A stretch of DNA of 54,575 nt, from NCBI GenBank assembly GCA_018241125.1, contig JAFEEL010000063.1, forward strand, positions 1-54,575, read 5' to 3'. Origin of the DNA: Pseudomonadota bacterium. GTDB taxonomy: Bacteria; Pseudomonadota; Gammaproteobacteria; Xanthomonadales; Xanthomonadaceae. Shown here one piece after another: positions 1 through 50,895 of this stretch. The notes beneath the pieces were generated by a model. It saw only the letters and a program-made list of their open reading frames with translations. It ran no database searches and had not been told where the DNA came from. Each line of letters begins with the position of its first letter. Position 1 is the stretch's first letter. A program made the translations under genes and the position numbers.

Positions 1-3000
1 AGGAAGGTGGCGAACAGCATGCCGCCGATCACGCCGGTACCCAGCGCATGGCGAGCGTTGGCGCCGGCGCCGCTGGAAATCGCCATCGGGGTGACGCCCA
101 TGATGAAGGCGAACGAGGTCATCAGGATCGGCCGCAGACGCAGCCGCGCCGCGCCCATCACCGCCTCGCGCAGGCTGCGCCCGGCCTTCTGTTCGGCGAT
201 CGCGAACTCCACGATCAAGATCGCGTTCTTGGCCGCCAGACCGATGATCGTGATCAGTCCGACCTTGAAGAAGATGTCGTCCGGCAACCCGCGCGCCATC
301 GCCGCGACCACCGCGCCCAGCACGCCCAGCGGCACGATCGCCAGCACCGCCACCGGCACCGACCAGCTTTCGTACAACGCGGCAAGGCACAAGAACACCA
401 CCAGGATCGATAGCGCCAGCAGCATCGGGCCTTGCGCGCCGGAGAGGATTTCCTGATAGGACTGCCCGGCCCAGTCGTAGCCGAAGCCCTTGGGAAGTTG
501 CTGGTCGACGATGTCCTGCATCTTTTGCATGGCCTCGCCGGAGCTGTGCCCGGGTGCCTGGCTGCCGACGATCTCCATCGCCGAATAGCCGTTGTAGCGG
601 GTCAGCGTCGGCGCGTTCTGCGTCCAGCTCGCGTGCACCACGTCGGCCAGCGGGATCATGCCGTCGCCCGGCACCGCCGGATTGGCCTTGGCGCTGGGCG
701 TGTAGATGTAGCGCAGCGCGTCCGGGCCCATGCGGAACGGCGCGTCGGCCTGCATGATCACGCGCTTGATGCGGCCCTGATAGAAGAAGTCGTTGACGTA
801 CACCGGCGCCAGCATCAGCCCGATCGCCGAATAGATGTCGCCCACCGACAGCCCCATGGACTGCGCCTGCGTGCGGTCCACCGTCAGTTGCAGTTCCGGC
901 GCGGGCGGCAGGCCGTTCGGGCGCACCCCGACCAGCGCCTTGTCCTTGGCCGCGGCGGCCAGCAGTTGCCCGGTCGCCTGCTGCAACGCCGCTTCGCCGG
1001 CACCGGAGCGATCCTGCAAGAACATGTCGAAGCCGCCGAAGCGGCCCAGCCCGCTCACCGTAGCCTGATTGATGACGAAGATGGTGCCATCGCGGATACC
1101 GAACAGCCGCCCGTTCATTTTTTCGATGAACTGCGCTGCGGTGATGCTGCGCTTGGACCAGTTCTTCAGGCGCACGAAGGCCATGCCGGCATTTTCGCTG
1201 GAGCCGATGAAACTGAAGCCGGCCACGTCGAACATGCCCTCCACCGCCGGATCGGCTGCAATGACCTGACGCACCTGGGCCATCACCGCTTCGGTGCGCT
1301 GGATCGACGCGCCCGGCGGCAGTTGTGCCAGCACCAGCACCGAGCCCTGGTCTTCGTCGGGCAGAAAACTGCTGGGCAGCTTGACGAACAACCATCCGCA
1401 CAGCACGGTCAGCACGACAAAGGCCGTCAGCCAGCGCGGCGCGTGGCGCACCGCGCGGCCAACGTGGCCCAGGTAGGTGTGGCGCAGCCATTCAAAGGTG
1501 GCGTTGAACCAGCGGAATAGCGGATTGCGTGCGTGCGGGTGCTCCACCTTCAACAGGCTGGCGCACAGCGCCGGCGTGAAGCCGAGCGCGAGGAAGGCCG
1601 ACAGCGCCATCGCGATGGCGATAGTCAACGCGAACTGCTTGTAGATCTCGCCGGCGCTGCCGCTTTGCAGCGCGCTGGGGATGAACACCGCCGCCAGCAC
1701 CACCGCGATCGCCACCACCGCACCGGTGATCTGCTGCATCGCCTTGATGGTCGCCAACCGCGGCGGCAGGTGTTCTTCGCTCATGATGCGTTCGACGTTC
1801 TCGATCACCACGATCGCGTCGTCCACCACGATGCCGATCGCCAGCACCATGCCGAACAAGGTCAGCTGGTTGACCGTGAACCCGATCGCCCACATGCCCA
1901 GGAACGTGCCCAGCAGCGCCACCGGGATCACCAAGGTGGCGATCACCGTGGCGCGCAGGTTCTGCAAGAACACCAGCATCACCAGGAACACCAGCGCCAG
2001 CGCTTCGAACAAGGTCTTGACCACTTCCTCGATCGAGGCCTTGACGAAGGTCGACGTGTCGTAGGCCGGGAACCAGTGGATGCCCTGCGGGAAGCTCGGC
2101 TGCAACTGCGTCATCTTCGCGCGCACCGCATCGGCCACCGCCAGCGCGTTGGCGCCGGCCGACAATTGCACCGCGAAACCGGCGGCGGTAGCACCGTTGT
2201 AGCGCGCCGAAAATCCGTAGCCCGAAGCGCCGAACTCGACCCGCGCCACGTCGCCCAAGCGCACCGTGGTGCCGTCGGGATTGGCGCGCAACACCACGTC
2301 GCGGAACTGCTGCACCGAATCGAAGCTGCCCTCGGCGGTCACCGATGCCTGAAAGCCCTGACCCGGGACCGCCGGATCGGCACCGATCGAACCAGCGGCG
2401 AACTGCACGTTCTGCGCCCGCAATGCGGCCAGCACCTGGGTCGCCGACAAGCCATAGCCGTGCAGCTTGTCCGGGTCGAGCCAGATGTTCATCGCGTACT
2501 CGCCGCCGAACTGGTGCGCGCTGCCCACGCCGGGCAGGCGCGCGATCTGGTCGAGGATGCGCGAGGCGATCAGGTCATTGAGCGCGGCCAGGGTGACCTT
2601 CGGGTCGTCGGCGCGCATGCCCACCACCATCAGGAAGGCGGCATTCGACTTGGCGACCACGATCCCTTGCTGCACCGCTTCGGCCGGCAGGCGCGGGGTG
2701 GCCAGCGCCACCTTGTTCTGCACCTGCACCTGCGCGGTGTCCGGGTCGGTGCCGGGCTTGAAAGTGAGGGTGATGCTCGATTCGCCGCCGGCGCTGGACG
2801 ATGAGGTGAAAAACAGCAGATTATCGATGCCGGAAAGCTGCTGCTCGATCACCTGGGTGACCGCGCGCTCGGTGGTGGACGCGCTGCCGCCGGGATAGGT
2901 GGCGCTGACCACCACCTGCGGCGGGGCGATCGACGGATACGACTCCACGCCGAGGTTGCGGATCGCGAGCATGCCGCCGAGCGCGATCAGGATCGCCACG

Positions 3001-3041
3001 ACCCACGCGAACACCGGGTGGTCGATGAAAAACTTCGGCAT
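1..3041 (-). CDS. RND multidrug efflux transporter, HAE1/AcrB-MexB family (3' end outside window)
   Basis: Inner-membrane proton/drug antiporter of a tripartite efflux pump. The reading frame is open from ATG 3041 (MPKFFIDHPVFAWVVAI) to the window edge, about 1013 codons of an expected ~1050, so only about 35 C-terminal residues are missing. Visible family marks: the N-terminal cytoplasmic stretch and first TM helix, the TM4 proton-relay motif GIVVDDAIVVIENVERI with paired Asp, the TM10 Lys in GLAAKNAILIVEFA, and porter-domain motifs such as YPSIAPPQVVV. The adaptor gene lies 44 bp upstream on the same strand, so the two are probably co-transcribed. An outer-membrane channel gene may follow outside the window. 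The substrate cannot be predicted from sequence. I see no frameshift. Confidence 0.95.
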   Translation of the reverse strand, partial: MPKFFIDHPVFAWVVAILIALGGMLAIRNLGVESYPSIAPPQVVVSATYPGGSASTTERAVTQVIEQQLSGIDNLLFFTSSSSAGGESSITLTFKPGTDPDTAQVQVQNKVALATPRLPAEAVQQGIVVAKSNAAFLMVVGMRADDPKVTLAALNDLIASRILDQIARLPGVGSAHQFGGEYAMNIWLDPDKLHGYGLSATQVLAALRAQNVQFAAGSIGADPAVPGQGFQASVTAEGSFDSVQQFRDVVLRANPDGTTVRLGDVARVEFGASGYGFSARYNGATAAGFAVQLSAGANALAVADAVRAKMTQLQPSFPQGIHWFPAYDTSTFVKASIEEVVKTLFEALALVFLVMLVFLQNLRATVIATLVIPVALLGTFLGMWAIGFTVNQLTLFGMVLAIGIVVDDAIVVIENVERIMSEEHLPPRLATIKAMQQITGAVVAIAVVLAAVFIPSALQSGSAGEIYKQFALTIAIAMALSAFLALGFTPALCASLLKVEHPHARNPLFRWFNATFEWLRHTYLGHVGRAVRHAPRWLTAFVVLTVLCGWLFVKLPSSFLPDEDQGSVLVLAQLPPGASIQRTEAVMAQVRQVIAADPAVEGMFDVAGFSFIGSSENAGMAFVRLKNWSKRSITAAQFIEKMNGRLFGIRDGTIFVINQATVSGLGRFGGFDMFLQDRSGAGEAALQQATGQLLAAAAKDKALVGVRPNGLPPAPELQLTVDRTQAQSMGLSVGDIYSAIGLMLAPVYVNDFFYQGRIKRVIMQADAPFRMGPDALRYIYTPSAKANPAVPGDGMIPLADVVHASWTQNAPTLTRYNGYSAMEIVGSQAPGHSSGEAMQKMQDIVDQQLPKGFGYDWAGQSYQEILSGAQGPMLLALSILVVFLCLAALYESWSVPVAVLAIVPLGVLGAVVAAMARGLPDDIFFKVGLITIIGLAAKNAILIVEFAIAEQKAGRSLREAVMGAARLRLRPILMTSFAFIMGVTPMAISSGAGANARHALGTGVIGGMLFATF

Positions 3042-3085
3042 GCCCCGCTCCCTGCTGGTTGCTCAGCGCCCGATGCGCAAACCGC

Positions 3086-4288
3086 TCACGACTTGCCCGG
3101 CGGCTTGCCGGCATCGCCCGCGCTGCTGCCGGCCGCAGCCGGCGGCTGCCACGGCGTGGCCTTGGCGGACGCGCCGGGCTGCACTTTCGGAATGCCCGAG
3201 ACGATCACCTGCTCGCCCGGCTGCAAGCCCTGGCTGATGACCCAATCGCTGCCGTGCGTGCTGTCGGCGACCACGTCGCGACGCACCACCTTGCCATCGC
3301 TGCCGACCACCAGCACGAACGGCCCGATCGCGTCGCGCTGCAAGGCAGCTTGTGGCACGAGGTAGACGTTCTTCAACTCGCCCATGCTGGCGTTGAGGCG
3401 CACGTACAGCCCCGGCAGCAATACCCGCTTGGGGTTGGGAATGCGTGCGCGCAGTTCGATCGCGCCGGTGGCCGGATCGACCGCGGCGGCGGCGAAATCC
3501 AGCACGCCGGGCTGGTCGTACACCGTGCCGTCGGGCAGCGTCACCCGCACCTGCGCGGAGCCTGCGCCGGAAAGACTGGCATCGCCGTTGGACTGCATGT
3601 CGCGCAGCTTCTGCAACTCGCCGGCGCCGATCGAAAAATTCGCGTACACAGGGTCGATCTGCTCGACCGTGGTGAGCAAGGTCGCATCGCCCTGCCCGAC
3701 CAGCGCGCCCTCGGTCACCTGCTGCTGCCCGGCCCTGCCGGCGATCGGCGCGCGCACGTCGGCATAGCCCAGGTTGATCCGCGCCGCCTGCGCATTGGCC
3801 TGCGCCTGCTGCATCGCCGCCTGCGCGCTGCGCTCGGCGGCCAGCGCGTTGTCGAGGTCGGACTTGGCGATGAACTTGCCCGGCGCCAGCGAACGCGCGC
3901 GATCGGCGGCCACGTGCGCATTCGTGTACGTCGCCTTGGCCGCCGCGAGGCTGGCCTGCGCGGCATCCAGCGCGGCCTGCAGCGACGAGGGATCGATCTG
4001 GAACAGCGGCTGCCCGGCGGTCACGTCGCTACCTTCTGCGTACAGGCGCTTGCGCAGCACGCCGGGCACGCGCGCGCGCACGTCGGCGCTGCGGAAGGCC
4101 GACAGCCGACCAACCAGATCGCGTTGCAGGCTGACGTTGCCAGGCTGCACGGTGACCACGCCGACTTCCGGCGGCGGCGGCGTGCCGCCTTGCTGCTGGC
4201 CACTGCTGCCACACGCAGCCAGTGTCCACGGCAGCAGCGCGGCGAGGATGAGCGAAGACCACGACACGCGCATGCGCGACCCCGACAC
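3086..4288 (-). CDS. RND efflux periplasmic adaptor (membrane fusion protein, AcrA/MexA family)
   Basis: Periplasmic adaptor linking the RND pump to an outer-membrane channel. 400 aa. The N-terminus is a lipoprotein signal: a hydrophobic run followed by LAAC-GSS, with the lipobox Cys at about residue 25. Then come a beta-barrel/lipoyl half (VVTVQPGNVSLQRDLVGRL), a long alpha-hairpin rich in Ala and Gln (AALDAAQASLAAAKATY onward), the second lipoyl half (YADVRAPIAGRAGQQQV) and the C-terminal barrel with IPNPKRVLLPGLYVR. An internal Met six codons in (MRVSWSS) could be the true start. It lies 44 bp upstream of the pump gene and 18 bp downstream of bioD, all on the minus strand. Confidence 0.95.
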   Translation of the reverse strand: MSGSRMRVSWSSLILAALLPWTLAACGSSGQQQGGTPPPPEVGVVTVQPGNVSLQRDLVGRLSAFRSADVRARVPGVLRKRLYAEGSDVTAGQPLFQIDPSSLQAALDAAQASLAAAKATYTNAHVAADRARSLAPGKFIAKSDLDNALAAERSAQAAMQQAQANAQAARINLGYADVRAPIAGRAGQQQVTEGALVGQGDATLLTTVEQIDPVYANFSIGAGELQKLRDMQSNGDASLSGAGSAQVRVTLPDGTVYDQPGVLDFAAAAVDPATGAIELRARIPNPKRVLLPGLYVRLNASMGELKNVYLVPQAALQRDAIGPFVLVVGSDGKVVRRDVVADSTHGSDWVISQGLQPGEQVIVSGIPKVQPGASAKATPWQPPAAAGSSAGDAGKPPGKS

Positions 4289-4306
4289 GATGGCGACCGC
4301 GGGAGT

Positions 4307-5032
4307 CTAGCCGAAAGCGTGTTGGTGGCTACCGTGCCGGAAGTCAGCCACCACCCGCGCCGCCGTCGCCAATGCAGGATGCAGCGTTGCAGCAATGGCA
4401 CCGGGCGCATGCGGCAGCAGGCCCAGCGGCGGCGCACCCAGCATGCGTTCGAGGATGCCCAGCGTTTCCGGCAGATGCGCGAACTCCGGATCGACCGCAC
4501 TGCCGATCCAGCCCAGCAGCGGCAGGCCGTCGGCACGGATCGCACGCGCACTCAAGCGCGCGTGGTTGATGCAGCCCAGCCGCAGGCCGACCACCAACAG
4601 CACCGGCAGACCCCAATCCCGCGCCAGTTCGGCATGATCCAGGTCCACCGCCATCGGGCTGGCCCAGCCGCCGACGCCCTCGACCACGACCACATCGGCC
4701 TGTGCGCGCAGCGCATCGAATGCCACCCGCAGCCGCTCGCGCTCGATCGCCACGCCGACCGCGGCGGCGGCGATCTCCGGCGCGGTCGGCTCGGGCAGCG
4801 CGTAGGGATTGACCAGCGCGTAAGCGGGCTGTGGATCGCTCGCCGCAAGCAGGCGCAGGGCGTCGTCGTTGCGCCAGCCTTCCACCGTGTGCTCGCTGCC
4901 GCTGGCGACCGGCTTCATGCCGACCGCGCGCAAACCGCGTGCGCGCAGCGCATGCAGCAGCGCGCAGGAAACGGTGGTCTTGCCGATGCCGGTGTCGGTG
5001 CCGGTGATCAATACACCCCGCGCGGCGGTCAT
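4307..5032 (-). CDS. bioD: Dethiobiotin synthetase (ATP-dependent)
   Basis: Catalyses ATP- and CO2-dependent ureido-ring closure of 7,8-diaminopelargonate to dethiobiotin, the penultimate step of biotin synthesis, in the cytoplasm. 241 aa, the usual length. The P-loop GTDTGIGKTTVSCALL is at the N-terminus, KPVASGSE follows, and VVVEGVGGWASPMAV is the conserved second motif. The start at 5032 (MTAARGVLITG) is chosen because it puts the P-loop near residue 10 and because ATG overlaps the stop of the preceding membrane-protein gene (ATGA). The longer frame to 5140 reads into that gene. No other bio gene is in the window, so the pathway is dispersed. Confidence 0.95.
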   Translation of the reverse strand: MTAARGVLITGTDTGIGKTTVSCALLHALRARGLRAVGMKPVASGSEHTVEGWRNDDALRLLAASDPQPAYALVNPYALPEPTAPEIAAAAVGVAIERERLRVAFDALRAQADVVVVEGVGGWASPMAVDLDHAELARDWGLPVLLVVGLRLGCINHARLSARAIRADGLPLLGWIGSAVDPEFAHLPETLGILERMLGAPPLGLLPHAPGAIAATLHPALATAARVVADFRHGSHQHAFG

Positions 5033-5766
5033 GCCGAAGCCTGCGATGCGTGCAACCGCCGTTCGTAACGACGCAACGACACAGCAATCACGAGGTTGCC
5101 GAAATACAGATAGCCCGGCAGGCCCAACTGCCAGCGCCAACTCTCATCAGCGAACTTCAACAGCGCCCATGCGATCGCCACCGACACCGCAGCGACCAGA
5201 CACAGCAGTGCCCACCGCAGCACGCTCACCCGAGTCGCGATGCGTTCCTGCGAAGTCAGCGCCAACTCGTCGCGGCAGCGCCAAGCATGCAGGTACAACC
5301 GCCATACGACGGCGCACAAGGCACCATAGGCCAAGCCATAAGTCACGAACAAAGCCGGAATGTCGCGCCAGTCGCGCAGGCCGAAGTTCGCCGGCAACCA
5401 GCCGCTGCTGAGCAAGGCGAACAGCGAGCCGAACACCATCCGCAGCGGATAGACGAAAATCAGCACCAGAAAGACCAACAGCAGGCTCAAGCGCCGCGTC
5501 GGTGCATCGTCCAGACCGTAGCACCGGCTCCACTGGGTGTGCGCCGTCCAGAACGTCAGGATCAGCATGAAGCTGGCGGCGAAGGTCGGCACACTCTTCA
5601 GCGCCAGAATCAAATCGTCCACGCTGCGCGGCAGATGGTCGCCGGCGATCACCAGCAACGTCACCGCGAAGGCGAAGGCCGCATCGACGAACGCTTCCAG
5701 CCGGGTGGTCTTGTCGCCACGCTCGGCGGACGCTGCGGCAAACGATGACTCAGCCGATGGGCCCAT
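5029..5766 (-). CDS. TMEM175-like integral membrane protein (DUF1211 family)
   Basis: Probable cation (potassium) channel of the bacterial TMEM175/DUF1211 family. 245 aa, with several hydrophobic segments fitting six TM helices. The diagnostic first helix appears as RLEAFVDAAFAFAVTLLVIAGD, matching the family pattern R-x3-F-S-D-x2-F-A-x2-x-T-L-L except that the usual Ser before the Asp is Val here (FVD). Assignment rests on this helix and the overall topology; function is inferred. It overlaps bioD by 4 bp (ATGA), suggesting co-translation although the functions are unrelated. A weakly conserved paralogue with lost selectivity is also possible. Confidence 0.75.
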   Translation of the reverse strand: MGPSAESSFAAASAERGDKTTRLEAFVDAAFAFAVTLLVIAGDHLPRSVDDLILALKSVPTFAASFMLILTFWTAHTQWSRCYGLDDAPTRRLSLLLVFLVLIFVYPLRMVFGSLFALLSSGWLPANFGLRDWRDIPALFVTYGLAYGALCAVVWRLYLHAWRCRDELALTSQERIATRVSVLRWALLCLVAAVSVAIAWALLKFADESWRWQLGLPGYLYFGNLVIAVSLRRYERRLHASQASA

Positions 5767-5833
5767 GCCCGATCGCTCCTGTACATGGCCAAGGGGATGG
5801 CGCTGCTAGAATGCTTTCGAAATCGGAGAAACC

Positions 5834-6331
5834 ATGTTCGCCGCTGCCCAGCTTACCGGAAGCAAGCCCGAGCAATACGCGCAACTCGCGCAACAAGCGC
5901 GCGGCCTGCTGCATGGCGAGCGCGACCGCATCGCCAACGCGGCCAATCTTTCCGCGCTGGTGTATCACGCGTTGCCGGCGTTGAATTGGGTCGGTTTTTA
6001 TTTCTTCGATGGCCGCGAGCTCGTGGTCGGCCCGTTCCAGGGTCAGCCGGCCTGCGTGCGCATCGCGCTCGATCGCGGCGTGTGCGGCGCGGCCGCCACT
6101 TCGCGGCAGACCCAGCGCGTGGCCGACGTGAACGCCTTCCCCGGTCACATCTTCTGCGATGGGGCATCGCGCTCGGAACTGGTGGTGCCGCTGTTCGCGC
6201 GCGGCGCAAGTGGCAACGAGCAACTCGTCGGCGTGTTCGACCTTGACAGCCCGCAGCTCGACCGCTTCGACGCCGAAGACCAACGCGGGCTGGAAGCGCT
6301 CGCCCGCATCTGGCTGGAGGCCAGCGCATGA
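5834..6331 (+). CDS. msrC: Free methionine-(R)-sulfoxide reductase, GAF domain (fRMsr)
   Basis: Reduces free L-methionine-(R)-sulfoxide to methionine in the cytoplasm, using active-site cysteines. 165 aa, one GAF domain, the usual length. The three cysteines typical of fRMsr are present in family context: ACVRIALDRGVCGAAA (two) and HIFCDGASRSELVVP (the third, catalytic one). NWVGFYFF and VGVFDLDSP are further family signatures. GGAGA stands five bases before the ATG and fixes the start. The divergent gene starts at 5766, so the promoters of both must lie in the 67-bp gap. Its stop overlaps the next start (ATGA). Confidence 0.93.
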   Translation: MFAAAQLTGSKPEQYAQLAQQARGLLHGERDRIANAANLSALVYHALPALNWVGFYFFDGRELVVGPFQGQPACVRIALDRGVCGAAATSRQTQRVADVNAFPGHIFCDGASRSELVVPLFARGASGNEQLVGVFDLDSPQLDRFDAEDQRGLEALARIWLEASA

Positions 6332-6741
6332 GCGAGCCGGTGAAGCTGCCCAATATCGGGCCCAAATCCGCGGCGTGGCTGCGCCAGGTCGGCATCCGTT
6401 CGCGCGAACAACTGGTCGATGCCGGCGCGTTGGGCGCGTTCGTCAGGATCAAGCGTGCCGGCTTTCGCCCCGGCCTGAACCTGCTGTATTCGCTGGAGGG
6501 CGCGATCCGCGATTGTCATTGGCGCGAGGTTCCCGAGCAACGCCGCGCCGAACTGCTCGCCGCAGCCGATGCCGCCGGTGCCACTGCACCGCCGACACGC
6601 GGCAAGCCGATGCCGCCGGCCGAGCCGGTGCGCACGATCTGGTCGGACGACGCGCAGCGCGACGACGCGCAAGACACACATCGCGACGAGGATTTTTCGC
6701 ACAGCGGATTGGATTCGCGAGAAGGCGGCAGCGAGGACTGA
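6328..6741 (+). CDS. TfoX C-terminal-domain (helix-hairpin-helix) protein
   Basis: 137 aa. Residues 5-85 (KLPNIGPKSAAWLRQVGIRSREQL ... AFVRIKRAGFRPGLNLLYSLEGAIRDCHW) match the stand-alone TfoX_C domain, a helix-hairpin-helix fold. The rest is a low-complexity acidic and Arg-rich tail, probably disordered. The N-terminal domain of competence regulator TfoX is absent, so this should not be called the regulator itself. Function is unknown. It overlaps msrC by ATGA and is probably translated from the same message. Confidence 0.8.
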   Translation: MSEPVKLPNIGPKSAAWLRQVGIRSREQLVDAGALGAFVRIKRAGFRPGLNLLYSLEGAIRDCHWREVPEQRRAELLAAADAAGATAPPTRGKPMPPAEPVRTIWSDDAQRDDAQDTHRDEDFSHSGLDSREGGSED

Positions 6742-6782
6742 TCTTCGGCTGCCGTCCGCGCACGTGCCGCCGCAGCTTCGTC

Positions 6783-6802
6783 GTCCCGGCGCACGCCGGG
6801 AC
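6783..6802. repeat. REP-like perfect palindrome
   Basis: GTCCCGGCG-CA-CGCCGGGAC, a 9-bp stem with a 2-base loop, in the 113-bp gap between the convergent TfoX_C and LOG genes. No T-tract follows on either strand, so it looks more like a short interspersed palindrome than a classical terminator, though it could stop or protect both messages. Related hairpins occur at 38342-38361 and 41647-41666. Confidence 0.6.
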
Positions 6803-6854
6803 CCATTTTGATCTTCGCGTCACCGCCACGGATCGAGCACGCCACGGGCCAGGA

Positions 6855-7442
6855 TCACCGCGCGCGCACCACCGCATGGCCGATGGCGCTCGCATCCCAC
6901 GGCGGCGCGTTCGCTATAGCCGGCAACACGTCGTCCACGGTATCGACCAGCGTCCACATCGCACCGTGGACTTCGTTCATGAAGTTCTCGCCGATCACCT
7001 GCGTGCGCATGAAATCGGCCCACGGCGTCCAGTAACCGCGCGTGTTCAACAACACGATGGGCCGGTGGTAGATGCCCAATTGCTTGAGTGTGATCGCCTC
7101 GAACAATTCCTCCAGCGTGCCGCAACCGCCGGGCAGCGCGACCACCGCATCCGAGCCGGTGAGCAGGCGATGCTTGCGCTCGCGCATGTCCTCGACCAGC
7201 GGCAGCGCGCTCAGACTCGCGTGCGCGAGTTCAAGTTCCACCATGAAGCGCGGGATCACGCCGATGACTTCCCCGCCCACGCTGAGCGCGCCATCGGCCA
7301 GCGCGCCCATCGAACCGACCGCGCCACCGCCATAAACAATGGCATGACCGGCACGCGCCAAGGTCGTGCCGAGCGCGTGTGCATCGGCGCGATAATCGCG
7401 ATGGCTGTGCGCGCTGGCGGCGGCGTAGATGCAGATGCGCAT
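6855..7442 (-). CDS. LOG-family protein (TIGR00730; nucleoside-monophosphate phosphoribohydrolase type)
   Basis: 195 aa, single Rossmann-like domain. The family signature is complete: VYGGGAVGSMGALADGAL near the N-terminus and VALPGGCGTLEELFEAIT (PGGxGTxxE). Members hydrolyse nucleoside 5'-monophosphates to base and ribose-5-phosphate; some release free cytokinins. The substrate here is inferred from the family only. The start at 7442 (MRICIYAAAS) is chosen because the family begins within a few residues of this strand; the frame extends to 7535 without homology. It is convergent with the TfoX_C gene. Confidence 0.92.
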   Translation of the reverse strand: MRICIYAAASAHSHRDYRADAHALGTTLARAGHAIVYGGGAVGSMGALADGALSVGGEVIGVIPRFMVELELAHASLSALPLVEDMRERKHRLLTGSDAVVALPGGCGTLEELFEAITLKQLGIYHRPIVLLNTRGYWTPWADFMRTQVIGENFMNEVHGAMWTLVDTVDDVLPAIANAPPWDASAIGHAVVRAR

Positions 7443-7539
7443 GAGATCTCTATTTTGCTGAAACACGTGGCCGGAACGAACTTGTGCGGCGTCGACTGAT
7501 CCTGCCCATTTTTCGCGGACACCCAGCGGCGACACCGCG

Positions 7540-10450: not shown

Positions 10451-10526
10451 GGAACCATCTCCGTGGCGTGGAAGCCGCATCCTACCCGATGCCAAGGGCG
10501 ACCCGGCATTGGTTCTGCGTTATCAC

Positions 10527-10665
10527 TGTCGCCGGACAATGGTGTCGTATCCCAGAATGCATGTAACTCGTTGATTGATGGACGTCTCAAGAGCTCGCAA
10601 TTTTCTAAAGTTCTATCCTGAAATTTGCGCCCCTGTCCGACTCCCTGCAAATAAAGATCGATCCT
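10527..10665 (+). repeat. Left end of the Tn7-like element with three TnsB-site-like repeats
   Basis: The terminus TGTCGCCGG is followed by a 19-bp repeat at 10535-10553 (GACAATGGTGTCGTATCCC), a second at 10601-10619 whose core is TAAAGTTCTATCC, and a third at 10647-10665 (GCAAATAAAGATCGATCCT). All face the same way. By eye they match the right-end repeat GACAATAAAGTCCTATCGC at 14, 11 and 12 of 19 positions. Three spaced sites is the arrangement of the Tn7 left end. The first repeat begins 8 bp from the terminus, exactly as at the other end. tnsE ends 16 bp further in, so there is no cargo on this side. Confidence 0.8.
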
Positions 10666-10680
10666 TGAGGGTCTCACACG

Positions 10681-12324
10681 TCAGGCGGCGTCCAAGCCAA
10701 GCTTCTCGATGAGCCGAGCTGCCCATTGCTTCGCCAGCTTATCCTTCTGTTCGCGGGGAATCAGCATCTTCGGAATCCGTTCACAACGGCAATGAGTGGC
10801 CAGCTCGGTTTCGATCCTGCCGAGCCAGTTTCCTCCGTTGTCGACCAGTCCGTCCAGCACGCGCGTCACCGCATCCTCGATCTGATCCGGCATCGCCTGG
10901 CCCTCGAAGTGAAGCGCCATCATCGAGAGCGCGGCGATCCCCGTGCGCTCGACATCGAGCAACGCTATCGGCGGCTGTCCAAGCCGCCTGATGACGACCA
11001 CCATGGCAGCCCGGGGATGGGAACCGGCAGTCGAGATCGCGCGACCCTGCTTGAGCTGGACGGGAGCCATCTCGAACTGCACGCGCGGAAGCTTGTCCCG
11101 CATGTACCGCGTGGTCTCATCCAGCGCGTCCAGATCGCCGATCGTCGCCCAGGCGGCGGACGCGAGCATCTTGAAGTCCACGGGCGGCAGCCTTGCCCCA
11201 CCCGCCCGTTCTCCAGCAGTGACAGGAACCGCCTTGGTCGTGGTCGCTTTGCGCTTCTTGCTGGAAGGCCTTTTCCCTGATGGCTTGCGCGGCGGTCGCT
11301 CGACTTCTACCGCCTGCCGATGAACCTTGACCCGATTTTCGAACGCCAGTTGCTTGCTTCCGATCTGAACGGTTTTCGGACTGCGGCCGTTGGTGCTGCC
11401 CGAGTCACCTTCGTCGACATCTGCTTCCTTCTCGGGGTTCTTCGATTCTTCATCCGGACGCGCCGGCGTGGGACCCTTGCCTTTCCCCGTGGCGCCCGCA
11501 GGGTCTGTGGACGACCCCGGGATGGCCTTCTTGAATCCTGGATGGCCAAAGTCGAGTTCATGGAACGGCAGCCGCCGTCCGGAGAGGCTTTTCAACTCCA
11601 GTACGAACCACTGGCTTCCATTGCGGACTCCGCGAAAGGACCATTGCGATGGACCGATCGGTGGAGGTTCAAACATGACGTACGGCTTTCCTGCCGATAG
11701 GCGCAGGATGCTGTCCCAGGATCGCCGGGCCTGCGGATCCAGAACGGTCCAGGCGAACTCCATGGCGAATTGCTTGCCGATACAACTCTTCGGCATCTCC
11801 CGGGTGAATCGCAGTTGGGCAGACGACCGATCACCAGGCTGGTCGGGGTAGTACAACTGTTCGATGCCTGCCGGACGCATCGCTGCCAACGCCATCGCGC
11901 GGTTGTGAATGAACAGCGCACGCATCAGTTCGACGACCGGGATCAGCACGTCACCTTGATCGTTCCGGTACCGAAACAATCGCTGGGTCCCTGCCTTGCC
12001 CTCGGGCAGTGGATACAACGACCGCGGCACGTCGGCAGACGTGATCACTTCGTATCGCGATAGGTCAGCAATGACGCCCTGTCCCTCAACGCCCAAGGCG
12101 TCGTCCAGCTTGAGCAACCCCTGGTCGAACCAGACGCCAAGGCTCAGGATCGGCAGCATGCCGATGGGCAGGCGCTGCTCGAAGAGCCGGCCGCTGCTGC
12201 GCCCACGGAACACGGCTCGGACCCACCACTCGTTCTTCTCGTTCCGGATCAGGCCCGCGATCCAGAACACCTCGACGGGCTCGTCCCCGTCGGCCTTGAC
12301 GGTTCGATAGATTACCCGTTTCAC
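10681..12324 (-). CDS. tnsE: Tn7-like transposition protein TnsE
   Basis: Target selector that, in Tn7, directs insertion into conjugating plasmids and replicating DNA by recognising 3'-recessed ends and the sliding clamp. 547 aa from GTG 12324, close to Tn7 TnsE (538 aa). Family features: VFWIAGLIRNEKNEWWVRAVF at the N-terminus, VIPVVELMRALF-like region (LIPVVELMRALFIHN), VMFEPPPIGPSQWSFRG, LPFHELDFGHPGF, then a basic Ser/Lys-rich linker (about 270-370) and a conserved C-terminal domain. The GTG start overlaps the tnsD stop by 4 bp (GTGA), which settles the start; the ATG at 12420 lies inside tnsD. The frame is uninterrupted, so this is the only intact tns gene here. Confidence 0.88.
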   Translation of the reverse strand: MKRVIYRTVKADGDEPVEVFWIAGLIRNEKNEWWVRAVFRGRSSGRLFEQRLPIGMLPILSLGVWFDQGLLKLDDALGVEGQGVIADLSRYEVITSADVPRSLYPLPEGKAGTQRLFRYRNDQGDVLIPVVELMRALFIHNRAMALAAMRPAGIEQLYYPDQPGDRSSAQLRFTREMPKSCIGKQFAMEFAWTVLDPQARRSWDSILRLSAGKPYVMFEPPPIGPSQWSFRGVRNGSQWFVLELKSLSGRRLPFHELDFGHPGFKKAIPGSSTDPAGATGKGKGPTPARPDEESKNPEKEADVDEGDSGSTNGRSPKTVQIGSKQLAFENRVKVHRQAVEVERPPRKPSGKRPSSKKRKATTTKAVPVTAGERAGGARLPPVDFKMLASAAWATIGDLDALDETTRYMRDKLPRVQFEMAPVQLKQGRAISTAGSHPRAAMVVVIRRLGQPPIALLDVERTGIAALSMMALHFEGQAMPDQIEDAVTRVLDGLVDNGGNWLGRIETELATHCRCERIPKMLIPREQKDKLAKQWAARLIEKLGLDAA

Positions 12325-13918
12325 GCGGCCGCCCGGCGTGGCTGATTCCACACGGCGATTCGCGCGGCGATCATCGGCAGGTGTCGGACCGTCAATCCCG
12401 CAACGCGCATGACGCGCCAAGGCACGAGCGGCACTTCCTGGTTGCAGAACTCGCCGAGTACGAATCCAACGCGGCGCTGCTGGAAGTCTTCGATGCTCTC
12501 GGTTTCAGCCTTCAGGCACGCGAGGGTGCGAGGAAGCTTGTTGGAACGCTTGGCGAACCAGCAGCGTTTCGCCACGTCGCGTTCGATCTCCGCTACCGTG
12601 ACCCGAACGGGCGGCAAACGGTCGCGTATCTTCAGCGACGCCTGGCGAACCTGCTCGCTCAGGGCGATATCCATCGCACCCCAGTTCAACCGTGGTCCGC
12701 GGTCGCGCATGTTGCGGCGTTGTAGCTCGTCTCGTTGCCGCTCGTGGACATCCGTCACAACGCCTTTCGACGCCACGGTGGCTTCGAGGCGGCGCTCTCG
12801 CGGGTACGCCTTCCACGGATTCGCCAGGCCAAGGTCGTTGGCCAGCCGGACCACGGTCTTGGGATCGATGTCCAGCCGTCGCGCGATCTCGCGAAGTGAA
12901 CAGCCGGATCGGATCGCTTTCTGCAGTGCGGGTTTCAACAGCGGCCCATATCGCAGGAACCGTGGCGGTCCCAGCGTCTGCGTCTGCTCGTGGAAGCTGC
13001 GGGTGTAGACGTATCCACACGTGCAGGAGAACACGCCCACGGCATGGCCATGATTGCGGTGCTGCTCAAACCCGGTGACGACGTCCTGGTTCCGATGTTC
13101 GGCCAACGGATTTCGACAGGCCCATGGACTTTGTCCGAAAGGCGAAGCGTGTGCGTCACAGTGCTGCAGCAGATCCTGCAAGAGAAGGTGGTACAGCGGA
13201 TGCGTGGCCTTCCGGTGCTTGCGCACCATCGCCGCCAGCCAATCGCCCGCAAAGCGATCGCCGTCCATGACGTCGGGAAGCGCCGACAGACACTCAACCA
13301 AGTGATTCCGCATCCGTGCAGCCAGCTCGGCTTGCTTCATGCGTGTGGGCGACACAGCCAGCCCCGCCCCCAACATTTTCCGCCGGTACCACGACGTCCA
13401 GTCGCGGAACGATTGGGCCAGACCCGGATCGAGTAGCAACGCTGCACTGCTCTTCGCCAATCGCACGAGCACCGCCCGTTCGGTCGTCGCCAGATCCCGC
13501 AACAGCGGTCGAGCGTGCCATGGACAGTTCTCGCGGCTCGCATGCACAAACGCGTGGCGACTGTGTCCGGCCAGGTCCACGGTGCTCTGCTGCAAGAGGC
13601 AGCAGTGGTCGGGACACACCAGGACGCTGGGCAATTGGTGGACCCGTCGCCAGTAGTACTCGCCATGCCGCACCCGCATCTCTGCCAGACACAGGTGACA
13701 GAAGCGAAGGCGCGTGATCCGTCCGGCGCGAAAGGCGGCCATGCCCAGCCGGACCAACAGCCCATCCGTGTTTCCGCAACGCAATGCGTCCCTGGCGTGC
13801 GTGCGCATCGCCGGCGGCTGGAACGCCGTGTAGTACGGCAGCAGCGTCATCGTGTTGATGATCCTGTCGACGTCCAGACCGCGTGCGGCCGGGATGCGGC
13901 TGGCCAACACCGGCAGGG
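12321..13918 (-). pseudogene. tnsD: tnsD/tniQ target selector, 5'-truncated
   Basis: TnsD binds the 3' end of glmS and recruits TnsC for site-specific insertion. About 531 codons remain, beginning LPVLASRIPAARGL. The ~45 N-terminal residues expected from Tn7 TnsD are missing. The TniQ zinc finger survives as RFCHLCLAEM ... VLVCPDHC (two Cys, then Cys-x2-His). Further TnsD marks: MVRKHRKATHPLYHLLLQDLL, SLREIARRLDIDPKTVVRLAND, RLNWGAMD and ETESIEDFQQRRVG. Upstream of ~13918 the frame is an out-of-frame reading of tnsB, so an internal deletion joined the two. No SD/ATG is evident at the junction. The residual protein, if made, would lack its start region and its partner TnsC. Confidence 0.85.
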
Positions 13919-14778
13919 AGACCGCGCAGGTCCTTGTCGTAGATCTTGGCGCCCATGCGCTTGCGCTTGATCTCCAGGCGGATGTGGTCCTTGTCGACCC
14001 AGTACTGGAACTGCCGGGCGGTGGGCACACCGCCTTCCTTCTTGGCCAGGTCGTTGGGCACATGCACGATGCGCCCGGTTTCGGGATCGATCGTCTTGTC
14101 CGCGAAGTAGTTGTCGATGACGTATCCGAAGGTGTCCTTCAGCATCCACTTGCGTTTCCGGTCGCTGGCGTAACAGCGCGAGATGGCGACCCGGAAGATC
14201 TTGCGGATCGCTTCGGTGATGTTGATGCCTTTTTCAGTGCCGTACTTTCGCGGGCGACCGCGCTTTTTCGAGGAGGCCTTGCGCGTCTTGCCCTTCCCGC
14301 CGGAGTGCCGGTAGTCGGGCAGCAGCGCGTTGGGCGTCAGGCCGCGCACCCAAAAGCGGCGCAGGTACCGGTACATCGTCGTGCGCGTCACGTTCCTGAC
14401 GCCGCCTTCGGTGTTCGTGCGCGCCTTCTTCACCGTCTCTTCCACCAGGGCTGCGCGCCGATGGGGGCTGAAGATGTCCGGCGCGTCACGGACCAGGTTC
14501 TCGATCAGCTTCCACGCCCGGTCGCGGATGCCCTTGTGGCTGGCCTTCACTCCCGATTCGGCGACCAGCACCCGATAGGGGTCTTCCAGCATCAAGCTGG
14601 CGGTGCCCGCCTCGAGTTCATCGAGCAGGGGCTGCACGGGAACGATCGCCGGCAACGCCTTGTCCACCTCCACCTGAATCGTCGCGACCGAGGTGTTGTC
14701 GGGGGACATCCAGATCACGCGGAGGCGCTTGGTTGGCGCGTCGGCAAAGTCGATCAGATCGCCAAGACGCAGGATCAT
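13919..14778 (-). pseudogene. tnsB: tnsB transposase, 3'-truncated (catalytic core lost)
   Basis: TnsB binds the end repeats and cuts and joins the 3' ends of Tn7. About 286 codons remain from ATG 14778 (MILRLGDLIDFADAP). The preserved part is the N-terminal DNA-binding region: RTTMYRYLRRFWVRGLTPNALLPDYRHSGGKGKTR, RGRPRKYG, PTARQFQYWVDKDH and KRMGAKIYDKDLRGL. The match to Tn7 TnsB (QTPNALIPDYKNSG, GVYKKDVRPL) stops there. The DDE catalytic domain is absent, replaced by tnsD sequence in another frame. The residual frame runs to a stop near 13294 as an out-of-frame tail. ATG overlaps the tnsA stop (ATGA). A truncated product might still bind the ends and act as a repressor; that is inference. 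Confidence 0.87.
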
Positions 14779-15163
14779 GCCTGCCTCCTTTCCGACTGCG
14801 GCTTCGCCAAAACGGTCAGGCGGCTGATTGAGTCGCCGGTCGAGAACGGGCGATCGAGATCTAGTCCGAGCAGGCGATTGGCCGCAAGGTGCCGAAGCAC
14901 GGTCAGGCCTTCGCCAGGCTTGAACTGGCAGGTGTTTTCCAGATGCGACAGGAACTCCCGGATCAATCCGCCGCGAACGCGCTGAAACTGCGCCAGAAAC
15001 TGGCTGCAGCGGTCGTTCCAGTAGTCCGGGTGCGGCTGTTCGAAGTGCTCGAGCGATCGCATTTCGTGGAGCCATCGCAGCGAATCGATGCGCTGTTTCG
15101 GCAGGTCGCGATCCGTCACCAGGTACCACTCCACGTTTTCGCGCTGCCAGTACCGTTGGCGCG
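14775..15163 (-). pseudogene. tnsA: tnsA endonuclease, 5'-truncated (C-terminal domain only)
   Basis: TnsA cuts the 5' ends in Tn7 transposition. Only about 128 C-terminal codons remain, starting RQRYWQRENVEWYLVTD, which matches Tn7 TnsA ERRYWQQKQIPWFIFTD. It ends LLGLDLDRPFSTGDSISRLTVL, matching the TnsA C-terminus. The N-terminal restriction-enzyme-like catalytic core is gone. The break is at 15157-15167, where the sequence switches directly into an hsdM gene on the opposite strand. The TGA overlaps the tnsB start. Confidence 0.82.
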
Positions 15164-16464
15164 ATTGGGCCGCCGATCCACAGGGCATTACCGGCGACGA
15201 ATTGCTCGCCTTCATCAACAACGACGAGGCCGTGCGCGCAAATGGGAAGAAGAGCGCCGGCCTGTTTGCCTACCTCCGCGGCCTTTCCAGTTCCAATGGC
15301 GACAACCGCCGCGACGTGATAGCGACCGTATTCAAGGGCGTCGATAACCGCATGAAGAGCGGCTATCTTCTCCGCGACATTATAAATAAAGTCGGAAGCA
15401 TCCACTTTACCTCGTCTGACGAGCTTCATACTCTCGGCGCGCTTTACGAATCCATGCTCCGCGAAATGCGCGATGCGGCGGGGGATTCCGGCGAGTTCTA
15501 CACGCCTCGCGCCGTCGTGCGCTTCATGGTGGAAGTCACTGATCCGCAATTGGGCGAAACTGTTCTCGACCCCGCCAGCGGCACGGGTGGATTCCTAGTC
15601 GAAGCTTTCAATTATCTGGATAAGCAGGTTAAGACCGTAGCCGACCGCAAGCGGCTACAGAACGAAACCATCACAGGATGCGAGCCGAAATCGCTCCCGT
15701 ACCTTCTTTGCCAGATGAACCTTCTTCTGCACGGCCTCGACGCGCCGCAGATTGACCCCGACAATGCGCTTCGCTTCAAGCTCTCGGAAATCGGCGAGAA
15801 AGACCGCGTCGATATCATCCTCACTAATCCGCCCTTCGGCGGCGAGGAAGAGAGAGGCATCCAAGGCAACTTTCCAGAAGACCGGCAGACTTCCGAAACT
15901 GCGCTTTTGTTCTTGCAACTCATCATGCGCAAGCTCAAACGCCAGCGAACCGCCGCAGACCGTCCGGCACGCGCGGCGGTGGTAGTTCCGGATGGAACGT
16001 TATTCAACGTGGGCGTCGCCGCACGTATCAAAGAACAACTTCTCAAAGAGTTCAACCTCCATACGGTCGTCCGGCTTCCATTTGGTGTCTTTGAGCCATA
16101 CACGCCTATTCGGAGCAATATCCTGTTCTTCGACTTGAGCGGCTCGACAGAATCAACCTGGTACTACGAGGTTGCCATCCCCGATGGCCGCAAGAAGTAC
16201 ACAAAGACAAAGCCTCTGCGCCTAGAGGACCTAAAAGGTGCTTTCGAATGGTGGAATGAGCGCGAGGAGGGAGAATGGGCTTGGCGCGTCTCCGTACGTG
16301 ACATGGCCGCAGCTGGATACAACATCGACTTCCCAAATCCCAATCGACAAGAAGACGCGCCCCCTGACGATCCCTCGGTCGTTATGCGCATGATCGAAGA
16401 AAATCAAAAGGTTATACATGAGTCGATGGCTACTCTTAGCAAGATACTGGAAAGCCTCCGATGA
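15157..16464 (+). pseudogene. hsdM: Type I restriction-modification methyltransferase subunit HsdM, 5'-truncated
   Basis: N6-adenine methyltransferase subunit. Homology begins abruptly at WRDWAADPQGITGDELLAF, which normally lies well inside the protein, so roughly 80-100 N-terminal residues are lost at the tnsA junction. Retained: KSGYLLRDIINKVGSIHF, EFYTPRAVVRFMVE, SAM motif I DPASGTGGFLVEAF (Ser where Cys is more usual), and catalytic motif IV NPPFGGEEE. 435 codons remain and are open to the stop. The first upstream in-frame ATG (15088) lies in tnsA antisense DNA. The stop overlaps the hsdS start (ATGA). The region is visibly richer in A+T than the host genes. Confidence 0.85.
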
Positions 16465-17633
16465 GTAGAATGATGGAATTCGGCGATTTGGTCGTGGAAG
16501 ACAATCGCCTAATAAATGTTCTCGATGATGTTGAATACGCTTGCGGTGGCATCCGGCTGCACGGACAGGGCATTTTCGTCCGAGAATACAAGCAAGGTGT
16601 CGATCTGAAGAAAAAGTTTGTTCAGCACGAAATCAAAGAGGGAGACATCGTATATAGCACGTTGTTTGCAAAGGCAGGCGCCTTTGCAGTCGCAGAGGCT
16701 GGTTCGGAAGGGGTAGTCCTTTCTGAGAAATTTCCAACCTTTCGATTGATTTCTCAAGAAATTACTTTGGATTATCTCAAGTGGTTTTTTCGATCCGGTC
16801 AACTAAATCGGATCGCGGAAAAGCAGATGACCGGCATCGCCGCGTTTAGCCTCTCCCACCTAAGTAAGCGCAAATTCTTGAAGCTCAAAGTTCCGGTTCC
16901 CGACATCGCACGGCAAGAGGAAGTTGTTTCACGCTGCCTGGAGTCCCATGCTGCGGTTGCTCGCGCTATGCCCAGCGTCAAGAGCAATATTGCAACCGTA
17001 CAAAATCTTATTGGTTGCGCAGCAACTAAGTCCTTTGCCTCGTTACCTCGTTTTCGTATTTCAGAGATTGGCGACTACGTTCTGCGTGCCGTCGACATTC
17101 GGCCAAGCACGCTCTACAAGCAAGTCACAGTGGCAATGAAAAATCGCGGACTACGGCTACGTAGGGTTTGTGAAGGTTCTGAAATCAAGAGTCCCGGACA
17201 GGCATCTGTAGCAGAGGGCGATATCCTCTTTTCCCGCATAGACCTTTGGCAGGGGGCAATTGGCATAGTCGGAAAGGACTTAGAGGGTGCGGTTGTTACC
17301 CGCGACTTTCCTGTGTTCCGACTCAAGGAACACGATTCCTCGGCTAGAGAGCTTTTGCGCTACGTCTTTATGACACCAGAATTCGCGGCGCAAGCTAGGG
17401 ATGTTAGCCGAGGAACAACTGGTCGTAAGAAAATGAAACGCCCCGCCTTTCTGGAAATCAGAATTCCTTGGTGTGAACGAGCGCGCCGCGTTGAAGTCCT
17501 TGACGCTCTCCGTGAGGTTGAAAAACAGAGTGCAATACTGTCAGCCCGTTCCCAGAGACAATCCATTCTTGCGCGACAAATGGGTGCGTCTATTGTTTCC
17601 ACGCTTTACGCACAGGATTCCGGCCTTATCTGA
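16461..17633 (+). CDS. hsdS: Type I restriction-modification specificity subunit HsdS
   Basis: 390 aa DNA-recognition subunit, apparently full length. Two target-recognition domains are visible: the first ends around LSHLSKRKFLKLKVPVPDIARQEEVV and the second around TTGRKKMKRPAFLEIRIPWCERAR. Each is followed by the helical conserved region that spaces the two half-sites. Start ATG 16461 overlaps the hsdM stop. No hsdR is in the window and hsdM is broken, so this is probably an orphan that cannot restrict DNA alone; it could exchange with another type I system elsewhere. Base composition differs from the flanking genes, indicating acquisition. Confidence 0.88.
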   Translation: MSRMMEFGDLVVEDNRLINVLDDVEYACGGIRLHGQGIFVREYKQGVDLKKKFVQHEIKEGDIVYSTLFAKAGAFAVAEAGSEGVVLSEKFPTFRLISQEITLDYLKWFFRSGQLNRIAEKQMTGIAAFSLSHLSKRKFLKLKVPVPDIARQEEVVSRCLESHAAVARAMPSVKSNIATVQNLIGCAATKSFASLPRFRISEIGDYVLRAVDIRPSTLYKQVTVAMKNRGLRLRRVCEGSEIKSPGQASVAEGDILFSRIDLWQGAIGIVGKDLEGAVVTRDFPVFRLKEHDSSARELLRYVFMTPEFAAQARDVSRGTTGRKKMKRPAFLEIRIPWCERARRVEVLDALREVEKQSAILSARSQRQSILARQMGASIVSTLYAQDSGLI

Positions 17634-17689
17634 CCGCTGCCGAGTTTGACGCCAACTGTGTGAGCTCAGTAGACGATCGAGAAAACGGG

Positions 17690-17712
17690 AGAGGCGAACG
17701 CCTCTTTTCTTT
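17690..17712 (+). terminator. Rho-independent terminator after hsdS
   Basis: AGAGGC-GAAC-GCCTCT stem-loop (6-bp stem, 4-base loop) followed by TTTTCTTT, 57 bp past the hsdS stop. It is well formed for plus-strand transcription. Confidence 0.75.
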
Positions 17713-17902
17713 CCACGCCAAACCGTTCTCGTGGGCGCAGTGTTGGCAAATCCACTTCTAAGAGTCATTCGACCTTGACTTCGGTCCCGACTGGCTGAGC
17801 CGAATCCGAAGATTGATGGGATTGGGGGCCACCTCAACGCGAAGCGAAAGCACAGATGCGCGTTCTGAACCCTGAACTCTTGGATACCAACCAGACGAGT
17901 CC
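17713..17902. other. Unassigned DNA between hsdS terminator and right-end repeats
   Basis: About 190 bp with no recognisable gene. Short open stretches exist on both strands but none has a start, SD or family likeness. It may be decayed cargo or former tnsA-promoter DNA. I could not assign it. Confidence 0.4.
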
Positions 17903-17989
17903 GCGATCACGCTTTGTTGTCGACGGGACAATTCTAATGTTTGCGATAGGACTTTATTGTCCTCGATATAACATTATTGTTTTTCGACA
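17903..17989 (-). repeat. Right end of the Tn7-like element: four 19-bp repeats at 20-bp period
   Basis: Read on the minus strand from terminus TGTCGAAA at 17989: repeats start at 17981 (AACAATAATGTTATATCGA), 17961 (GACAATAAAGTCCTATCGC), 17941 (AACATTAGAATTGTCCCGT, weakest) and 17921 (GACAACAAAGCGTGATCGC). The spacing is exactly 20 bp. The sequence resembles the Tn7 TnsB-site core GACAATAAAGTC. Four close sites is how the Tn7 right end is built. The first repeat lies 8 bp from the terminus, as on the left end. Confidence 0.83.
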
Positions 17990-18013
17990 ATCGCGCTTCA
18001 ACCTTGCATCGCG
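17990..18013. other. attTn7 insertion point (target duplication plus glmS-proximal DNA)
   Basis: ATCGC at 17990-17994 follows the element terminus and pairs with ATCAC at 10522-10526. It lies 20-24 bp past the glmS stop codon, where Tn7 is known to insert. TnsD reads the end of glmS itself (codons for NLAKSVTVE), which is intact here. Confidence 0.8.
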
Positions 18014-19840
<1,827 letters not shown>

Positions 19841-19924
19841 GGGGGTTTCCGTTGCGAAGGGGAAGGGGTTAGTTTAGCGGCAAGGGTATCGGCCCGGATG
19901 ACCGCGCCGGCAATCGGAGGCGCG

Positions 19925-20473
19925 ATGATGGCAAGTGACCGCTGGATCAGGCCCCGGCGCGGATCGGGATCCTTGCTGGTGTTGTTCTTGATCGCGCTGA
20001 TCGTGTTGCCGCTGTGGTACTGGCGCGGGCGCAGCCATCGACTGGCGGGGGAGACCCGCGTGGACTTGTGCCGACGACTGGACTCACTGCCGGGGTTGGC
20101 GGGGCTGCAATCGGCGCCGTTCGCCGCCGGCGACGTGGCCGGCAGTTGTCGCTGGAGCGCCGGCCCGCAACGGGTGGTGCTGGAAGCGAGCCTGATCACC
20201 ACACGCGGCAGCGGCGGCCACGACGTGGGCCGCCAGTTCGATGCCTGGCGCGAAGAGATCAAGGCCAGCTACGGGCCGACCGCCAACCTGCGCCAGATCG
20301 GCGACGAGAACTTGCGCACGCTGTCCTGGCGCTCCCCGGGCGGGAACGATCGCTTCGTCGAAGACCACGGCATCGCGCTGTCGCTGCACAGTCCGAGCCT
20401 GGACGATGTCCAACTCGATGCACTGATTGATCCGGCGCGCGAGGCGCTGCGTCGGGATCCGCAAGGCCGATGA
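19925..20473 (+). CDS. Hypothetical single-pass membrane protein
   Basis: 182 aa, not recognised. An Arg-rich N-terminus precedes one hydrophobic segment (SLLVLFLIALIVLPLWYW), then a soluble domain with SWRSPGGNDRF and two Cys (LCRRLDSL, GSCRWSAG), so an uncleaved N-terminal anchor with an extracytoplasmic domain is likely. GGAGG at 19916-19920 stands 4 bp before ATG 19925 and 7 bp before ATG 19928; either could be the start. It is divergent from glmS (84-bp gap) and convergent with glmU. Confidence 0.6.
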   Translation: MMASDRWIRPRRGSGSLLVLFLIALIVLPLWYWRGRSHRLAGETRVDLCRRLDSLPGLAGLQSAPFAAGDVAGSCRWSAGPQRVVLEASLITTRGSGGHDVGRQFDAWREEIKASYGPTANLRQIGDENLRTLSWRSPGGNDRFVEDHGIALSLHSPSLDDVQLDALIDPAREALRRDPQGR

Positions 20474-20542
20474 TGCCGATCACGCCCAGCGCCGCCTGAC
20501 TCAGTCCCAGCCGTTCCGGTGCCACGGTCGCGCACGCAATCC

Positions 20543-22636: not shown

Positions 22637-24369
<1,733 letters not shown>

Positions 24370-25238: not shown

Positions 25239-25377
25239 ACTCGGGACTCGGGACACGGGACTCGGGACTCGGGAAAGTCGCCAACGCCACGGTCGTAGTT
25301 AAGGTCTGGGGCTGGGCACCGCGGACCTTCGGGACACGCACGTGTGCGCGTCCCCAGTCCCGTGTCCCGAGTCCCGG
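25239..25377. repeat. Heptamer repeat arms between atpA and atpG
   Basis: Left arm 25239-25278 is (GGGACTC)n with GGGACAC variants. Right arm 25352-25377 carries the complement (CAGTCCCGTGTCCCGAGTC). Pairing is nearly perfect over about 20 bp, with ~70 bp loop. The two arms almost fill the gap between the atpG start and atpA stop. Confidence 0.8.
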
Positions 25378-50675: not shown

Positions 50676-50895
50676 TAACTCCAACACGCGCAAGCGCCGC
50701 ATGGCGGGTGTAGCGGGTTGGAACGATCGACCAAACGCGCACCCGGCTTGACAGCCCCGCCTTCCGTGATGCCTTAATGAAAAAGGGGAAGGCGCGGCCC
50801 GCTGTCACGGCATGCCGGGTCTTGGGGCTTGCGCCGGCGGTCTTCCGCCCCCACCCAACCCTCCATCGCAAGCGGGGGGAGGGCTTTGCTTTTTT

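Follow-up and report, generated by a model that had tools for sequence, protein, structure and literature searches.

An internally deleted transposon related to Tn7 was found just downstream of glmS in contig JAFEEL010000063.1 of a Pseudomonadota bacterium from the family Xanthomonadaceae (GenBank assembly GCA_018241125.1). The whole 54,575-nucleotide stretch analyzed is referred to here as the window; it is contig C59 of a draft genome of 3.07 Mb in 67 contigs, rated 99.99% complete. The element is 7,463 bp long (positions 10527-17989). It has both transposon ends, an insertion site 24 nt past the glmS stop codon, pieces of tnsA, tnsB, and tnsD, and a whole tnsE, all in the order known from Tn7. 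The reading of this locus as a deletion remnant at the Tn7 attachment site (attTn7), belonging to a branch of Tn7-like elements present in relatives of the same family (Stenotrophomonas and genome G636), is given a probability of about 0.9.

Ends, insertion site, and gene content of the element

The features of the element and its borders, in order of position, are as follows:
10522..10526: distal copy of the candidate target-site duplication, ATCAC, agreeing with the glmS-side copy in 4 of 5 bases
10527..10680, plus strand: left end, TGTCGCCGG, with three TnsB-type sites (10536-10551, 10602-10617, and 10648-10663)
10681..12324, minus strand: tnsE-like gene, 547 aa, apparently complete, 52-53% identical to the fifth genes of two sister elements
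12321..13931, minus strand: tnsD (TniQ/TnsD), truncated at the 5' end by some 43-54 codons (Pfam TnsD, 4e-64)
13910..13935: putative deletion junction 2, where the tnsB 3' part, tnsC as a whole, and the 5' end of tnsD are missing (from homology limits)
13918..14778, minus strand: tnsB fragment, residues 1-286 of 735 (tblastn; best solved structure Tn7 TnsB, 7pik, E 7e-25)
14775..15158, minus strand: tnsA fragment, C-terminal half, residues 157-276 of 285 (Pfam TnsA_C, 4e-13; tblastn with the SY1 protein, see below)
15118..15180: putative deletion junction 1, with the 5' ends of the divergent hsdM and tnsA missing (from homology limits)
15118..16464, plus strand: hsdM, type I methyltransferase, N-terminus missing (Pfam N6_Mtase, 8e-58)
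16461..17633, plus strand: hsdS, specificity subunit, 390 aa, apparently complete (Pfam Methylase_S, 6e-6; PADLOC Specificity_I, 2e-26)
17905..17989, minus strand: right end, TGTCGAAAA, with four sites at 20-bp spacing (17965-17980, 17945-17960, 17925-17940, which is weak, and 17905-17920)
17990..17994: candidate target-site duplication, glmS-side copy, ATCGC, read from the sequence
18014-19840, minus strand: glmS (TIGR01135, E 4e-246), whose 3' end is the TnsD target (attTn7)

The element is bounded by inverted TGTCG termini, one on the plus strand at 10527 and the other on the minus strand at 17989. Between the glmS TAG stop codon and the terminal TGT lie 24 nt, the same distance as in the sister element of Stenotrophomonas sp. 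SY1. The tns genes point away from glmS, so that the insertion lies just 3' of this gene in the fixed orientation of Tn7. An earlier reading made from the sequence alone had proposed a Tn7-like transposon with both ends, placed just past glmS in the attTn7 orientation, and all of this is borne out by the termini, the spacing, and the end scores given below. The same reading placed a 19-bp repeat 8 bp inside each end; the repeat is there, with copies identical at only 12 of 19 positions.

The ends were scored with a model of the TnsB-type site built from 13 sites of two sister elements only and applied at every TGT on both strands. The left pattern required sites at +9, +75, and +121, with one base of slack, and the right pattern sites at +9, +29, and +49. 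The left pattern scored 43.1 at 10527 (next-best place in the window, -14.9), and the right pattern scored 40.1 at 17989 (next-best, -8.6). Restricted to +9 and +29, the right pattern scored 39.2 at 17989 against -2.3 for the next-best place. The highest scores among 20 first-order Markov shuffles were -8.7 (left), -11.0 (right), and 0.0 (right, +9 and +29 only). Both ends thus score far above chance within the window. The sister sites and offsets were first read from a model that included two window right-end sites, which makes that first model partly circular; the scores quoted come from the model without those two sites.

The two ends are asymmetric and both carry arrays of TnsB-type sites, some of them weak. 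The outermost site of the left end is degenerate (score 3.7), and the third and fourth sites of the right end score 0.9 and 7.9. Left-end offsets in the window (9, 75, and 120/121) are those of the left ends of two sister elements. The right ends step by 20 bp, with four sites in the window and in SY1 and three seen in G636. In all six ends compared (window, SY1, and G636), TGT stands nine bases ahead of the first site. Both the right-end stretch and the element DNA occur as a single copy in the genome.

Inside the element, the tnsA fragment, tnsB fragment, tnsD, and tnsE follow one another on the minus strand in Tn7 order, and hsdM and hsdS lie on the plus strand near the glmS-side end. This restriction-modification cargo between the glmS-side end and tnsA was absent from the sequence-only reading. 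Only tnsE and hsdS look complete. The G+C content is 53% in the hsd part and 63% in the tns part.

The fifth gene of the operon is a putative TnsE, a target selector, as judged from its operon position, a partial tblastn match, and Foldseek ranks obtained with a low-confidence model. Searches against Pfam and PDB sequences gave nothing relevant for this protein. Pfam was likewise without a relevant match for TnsE of the three branch members scanned and for a distant TnsE of G636. A partial tblastn match (residues 110-300, 24.9% identity, E 2e-6) was found to plasmid genes annotated as TnsE in Shewanella and Aeromonas. Longer matches (28-32% identity over 97%) were found on two Azospirillum plasmids, where the genes are not named TnsE. 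The AlphaFold model is poor, with a mean predicted local distance difference test (pLDDT) value of 42.4 and block means of 43-73 in the last ~160 residues. Foldseek ranks 1-7 are nonetheless solved TnsE C-terminal domains (E 0.009-0.095), with no match reaching 0.001.

A CRISPR-associated transposon was considered as the identity of the element and rejected. No match to cas genes was listed for the six main open reading frames (Pfam, NCBIfam) or for the two hsd genes (PADLOC), and no CRISPR array was found in 10522-17994 in a search for direct repeats of at least 18 nt within 200 bases. This search returned one two-copy pair of 19 nt, 114 bases apart.

Sister elements in related genomes

Matches to the window TnsE were found in 3 of the 369 genomes of a class sample, namely its own genome, Stenotrophomonas sp. 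SY1 (G032), and G201 (27% over a part), and in 3 of the 297 genomes of a family sample, namely its own genome, SY1, and G636. A contig scan with single-sequence TnsE patterns found nothing; with a three-sequence TnsE alignment it found three loci in all, adding S. terrae DSM 18941 and a proteobacterial metagenome-assembled genome (MAG).

The SY1 element (NZ_JAJOYR010000001.1) is 26,470 bp long and has complete, contiguous tnsA (285 aa), tnsB (735 aa), tnsC (541 aa), tnsD (579 aa), and tnsE (535 aa). It shares with the window element the position 24 nt past the glmS stop, the spacing of the end sites, and type I restriction-modification genes that separate tnsA from the right end. In SY1 these genes are hsdR and hsdM, identified by PADLOC, and hsdS, named by eye. 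The TnsE proteins of the two elements are 52-53% identical, and the tns pieces of the window follow the tnsABCDE order. The SY1 element differs in its five complete tns genes, in ~9 kb between tnsE and the left end, and in a perfect 5-bp duplication (ACCGG/ACCGG). The tns genes of S. terrae DSM 18941 are 94-98% identical to those of SY1, and the left-end spacing is shared.

TnsB of SY1 matches Klebsiella plasmid genes at 37.8% identity over 97% of its length; some of the genes listed, for example OW967777, are annotated as Tn7 TnsB. The best solved structure for SY1 TnsB is Tn7 TnsB, matched at 29-723. This agrees with the sequence-only description of a lineage diverged from Tn7 itself.

G636 has a related element with complete tnsA-E in a tandem arrangement beside glmS. 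Two tandem Tn7-like elements lie there in G636:C1:625001-685000, at about 8313-53937 of the joined stretch. In the first, tnsA comes directly after glmS; in the second, both ends were located and Wadjet-type JetABCD lies beyond tnsE. The G636 element delimited by its ends is 28,552 bp long, with flanks AACTT/CACTT that have one mismatch, as in the window. CACTT is found 21-25 nt after the glmS stop codon and recurs on the far side of the second element. The right end and tnsA are separated by other genes in the window, SY1, and G636, and the SY1 and G636 elements have several kb beyond tnsE as well.

Such tandem elements, together with the G+C difference between the hsd and tns parts, would fit a composite origin of the window element, in which a deletion at attTn7 fused two Tn7-like elements lying in tandem, one contributing the glmS-side end with the hsd cargo and the other the tns genes with the distal end. 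This origin is considered unlikely: SY1 has the same layout (end, type I restriction-modification genes, tnsA-E) within one pair of ends, so that a single element suffices.

The two flanks of the SY1 element, joined together, were used to search 61 genomes of the same genus, including SY1 itself. The joint is crossed by an unbroken alignment in four of the 60 other genomes (G696, G725, G703, and G715). Detailed alignments across the joint are 79% identical in both G696 and G725, and G725 keeps a single ACCGG. These empty sites support the ends of the SY1 element and, because the spacing is shared, also those of the window element. In the other 56 genomes no listed alignment crosses the joint, and most match glmS only.

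Probable internal deletions and alternative readings

The sequence-only reading described the element as if it were whole, and this part did not hold: tnsC is gone, and tnsA, tnsB, tnsD, and hsdM are truncated. Two internal deletions are the likeliest explanation, judging from where homology stops. At junction 1, homology to tnsA runs up to 15158, and that to hsdM begins by 15118 (PADLOC), or near 15148 by eye, which leaves a slight overlap. The two best PADLOC MTase_I models are matched from profile positions 51 and 55. At junction 2, homology to tnsB stops at 13918 and that to tnsD begins at 13931 or, with another query, at 13916. The tnsD match covers residues 44-568 of 579 with the SY1 query and starts at residue 55 of 580 with the G636 query; in Pfam, the TniQ match begins at profile position 54. 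All 535 residues of SY1 TnsE are matched in the window.

The tnsB fragment ends before the catalytic core, since a weak integrase-core match, below the Pfam cut-off, starts at residue 297 in SY1 TnsB. The other reference domains in SY1 are the TnsA N-terminal endonuclease (75-172) and a Mu-type C-terminal domain of TnsB (529-586). No TnsA N-terminal domain was found in the Pfam scan of the window tnsA, and the tnsA fragment had no match in PDB. Thus, the catalytic parts of both the TnsB DDE transposase and the TnsA endonuclease are missing, and both nuclease activities should be lost.

In the tblastn comparison with SY1 proteins, TnsC had no match in the element. A tnsC query found nothing in its own genome or in four genomes of the same genus; among the eight genomes given, the same query matches SY1, G636, and G201. 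The rest of tnsB was not credibly found in the genome either, where the query matches only the fragment and one weak place on contig C5. This place (4780-5112) matches the TnsB C-terminal half with 33% identity (E 0.0026) and contains three stops; it may be left over from another DDE transposase. An in-frame TnsB-TnsD fusion was ruled out, as the tnsB frame enters tnsD out of frame. With tnsC gone and tnsA, tnsB, tnsD, and hsdM truncated, the element as it stands is no active autonomous transposon, and transposition activity of the remnant is predicted to be absent.

Several observations weigh against the reading as a deletion remnant with these ends. Coding sequence lies on both sides of each deletion, and no further stops interrupt the remaining frames, so that a very recent loss or an assembly error looks the same as an old loss; the genome is a 67-contig draft. 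The flanking 5-mers proposed earlier as a target duplication are both present and match in 4 of 5 bases, reading GCGAT and GTGAT on the glmS strand. No empty site was found for the window copy. In G703 (81%) and G715 (79%), the SY1 joint coincides with another, incomplete glmS end located ~1.1 kb beyond the first; thus, these two are not plain empty sites.

The draft state, the otherwise open frames, and breaks that fall cleanly inside genes would be expected if the living strain had an intact element and both deletions were faults of assembly. This would take two separate faults in one 7-kb element, in a genome of such completeness, where no contig carries tnsC and the rest of tnsB is represented by the weak C5 match at best; it is thus quite improbable.

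The losses are mainly catalytic or ATPase parts, and what remains is DNA-binding or TnsC-contacting, as the TnsB N-terminus and the TnsA C-terminus are. The remaining TnsB, TnsA, TnsD, and TnsE parts might accordingly have been retained as a regulator that interferes with incoming Tn7-like elements at attTn7. The tnsB fragment continues into a foreign frame, and this role appears highly improbable. A kept deletion derivative, whose fragments and ends block other Tn7-like elements at attTn7 or which is carried in trans by a relative, is scarcely more probable.

With the ends given above, an empty site would be expected to run from the glmS stop codon through 19 nt to a single copy of the 5-mer, either GCGAT or GTGAT, followed by AACGCAGAACC. 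The element DNA had no match in the four same-genus genomes (G001-G004). The DNA 3' of glmS could not be aligned to the window flank in G001-G003, where the genes of the window left flank (dinB and adh) do not adjoin glmS; G004, 71% complete, had no glmS match.

Other observations concern the surroundings of the element. The block to its left (window 1-7444) has opposite orientations relative to glmS in G001 and G002, which points to rearrangement of the region past glmS within the genus. The gap between glmU and glmS (19841-20542) is 0.7 kb in the window and ~7.7-8.8 kb in three same-genus genomes and one other relative. In G715 and G703, a diverged second glmS 3' end is joined to the usual distal flank, as if attTn7 had been duplicated around a small insert. 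Elsewhere in the window, 7-bp tandem arrays were found at 22732-22772, 24202-24233, 25239-25274, 27151-27199, and 50895-51085, one of them with 27 copies (TGTCCTC), and a 153-bp unit is repeated 2.8 times at 30292-30722 with 91% matches.

Relation to known Tn7-like transposons

In the E. coli prototype Tn7, tnsA adjoins the right end; in the window and both sisters, other genes intervene. Like Tn7, the window element lies at attTn7 in the same orientation, has three TnsB sites in its left end and four in its right end, and carries homologues of tnsA, tnsB, tnsD, and tnsE in operon order. Tn7 differs in being active and complete, and the window TnsE gave no relevant Pfam match.

Three left and four right TnsB sites are the number of Tn7 (Benler et al. 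2021, PMC8649781). Arrays of such sites mark the ends of Tn7-like elements, and TnsE is found among elements related to E. coli Tn7 (Benler et al. 2021, PMC8649781; Faure et al. 2023, PMC10293859). Of the defence systems carried as cargo, restriction-modification is the most frequent, with 947 transposons in Table 1 (surveys PMC8649781 and PMC10293859). All three traits are found in the window element, which differs from the surveyed ones as a remnant without tnsC and the tnsB catalytic core. TnsD reads the glmS 3' end, its TniQ domain recruits TnsC, and joining takes place with a 5-bp stagger; TnsE serves a second, replication-linked route (PMC11406308). Excision of the element is carried out by TnsA and TnsB (PMC10293859).

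In a literature search that left subscription papers mostly uncovered, no title or abstract opening dealt with this lineage, and 'Tn7-like' combined with 'Xanthomonadaceae' gave none. Nor did any title or abstract opening deal with genes lying between tnsA and the right end; the layout may nevertheless have been described before.

In the proposed history, an ancestor with intact tnsABCDE and type I restriction-modification cargo would have inserted into attTn7, with TnsD binding the glmS 3' end and recruiting TnsC and TnsA/TnsB. Insertion would have made a 5-bp duplication, one copy of which later changed by one base. One later deletion would have removed the 5' ends of both hsdM and tnsA, together with any sequence between them, and another the tnsB catalytic part, the entire tnsC gene, and the beginning of tnsD. 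From the site we infer, on good grounds, that TnsD placed the window copy; the sequence-only claim that this pathway is shown goes beyond what was demonstrated. Mobility was presumably lost after placement. The remnant would be immobile alone and could move only with TnsA, TnsB, TnsC, and a target selector supplied in trans by a related element.

The element is an ordinary deletion derivative, from a known type of transposon and with the most frequent type of defence cargo. To this branch it contributes a decayed copy, and it changes no general view of Tn7. Additionally, it points to four loci where tnsA-tnsE are nearly full length: those of SY1, S. terrae, the second G636 element, and the proteobacterial MAG.

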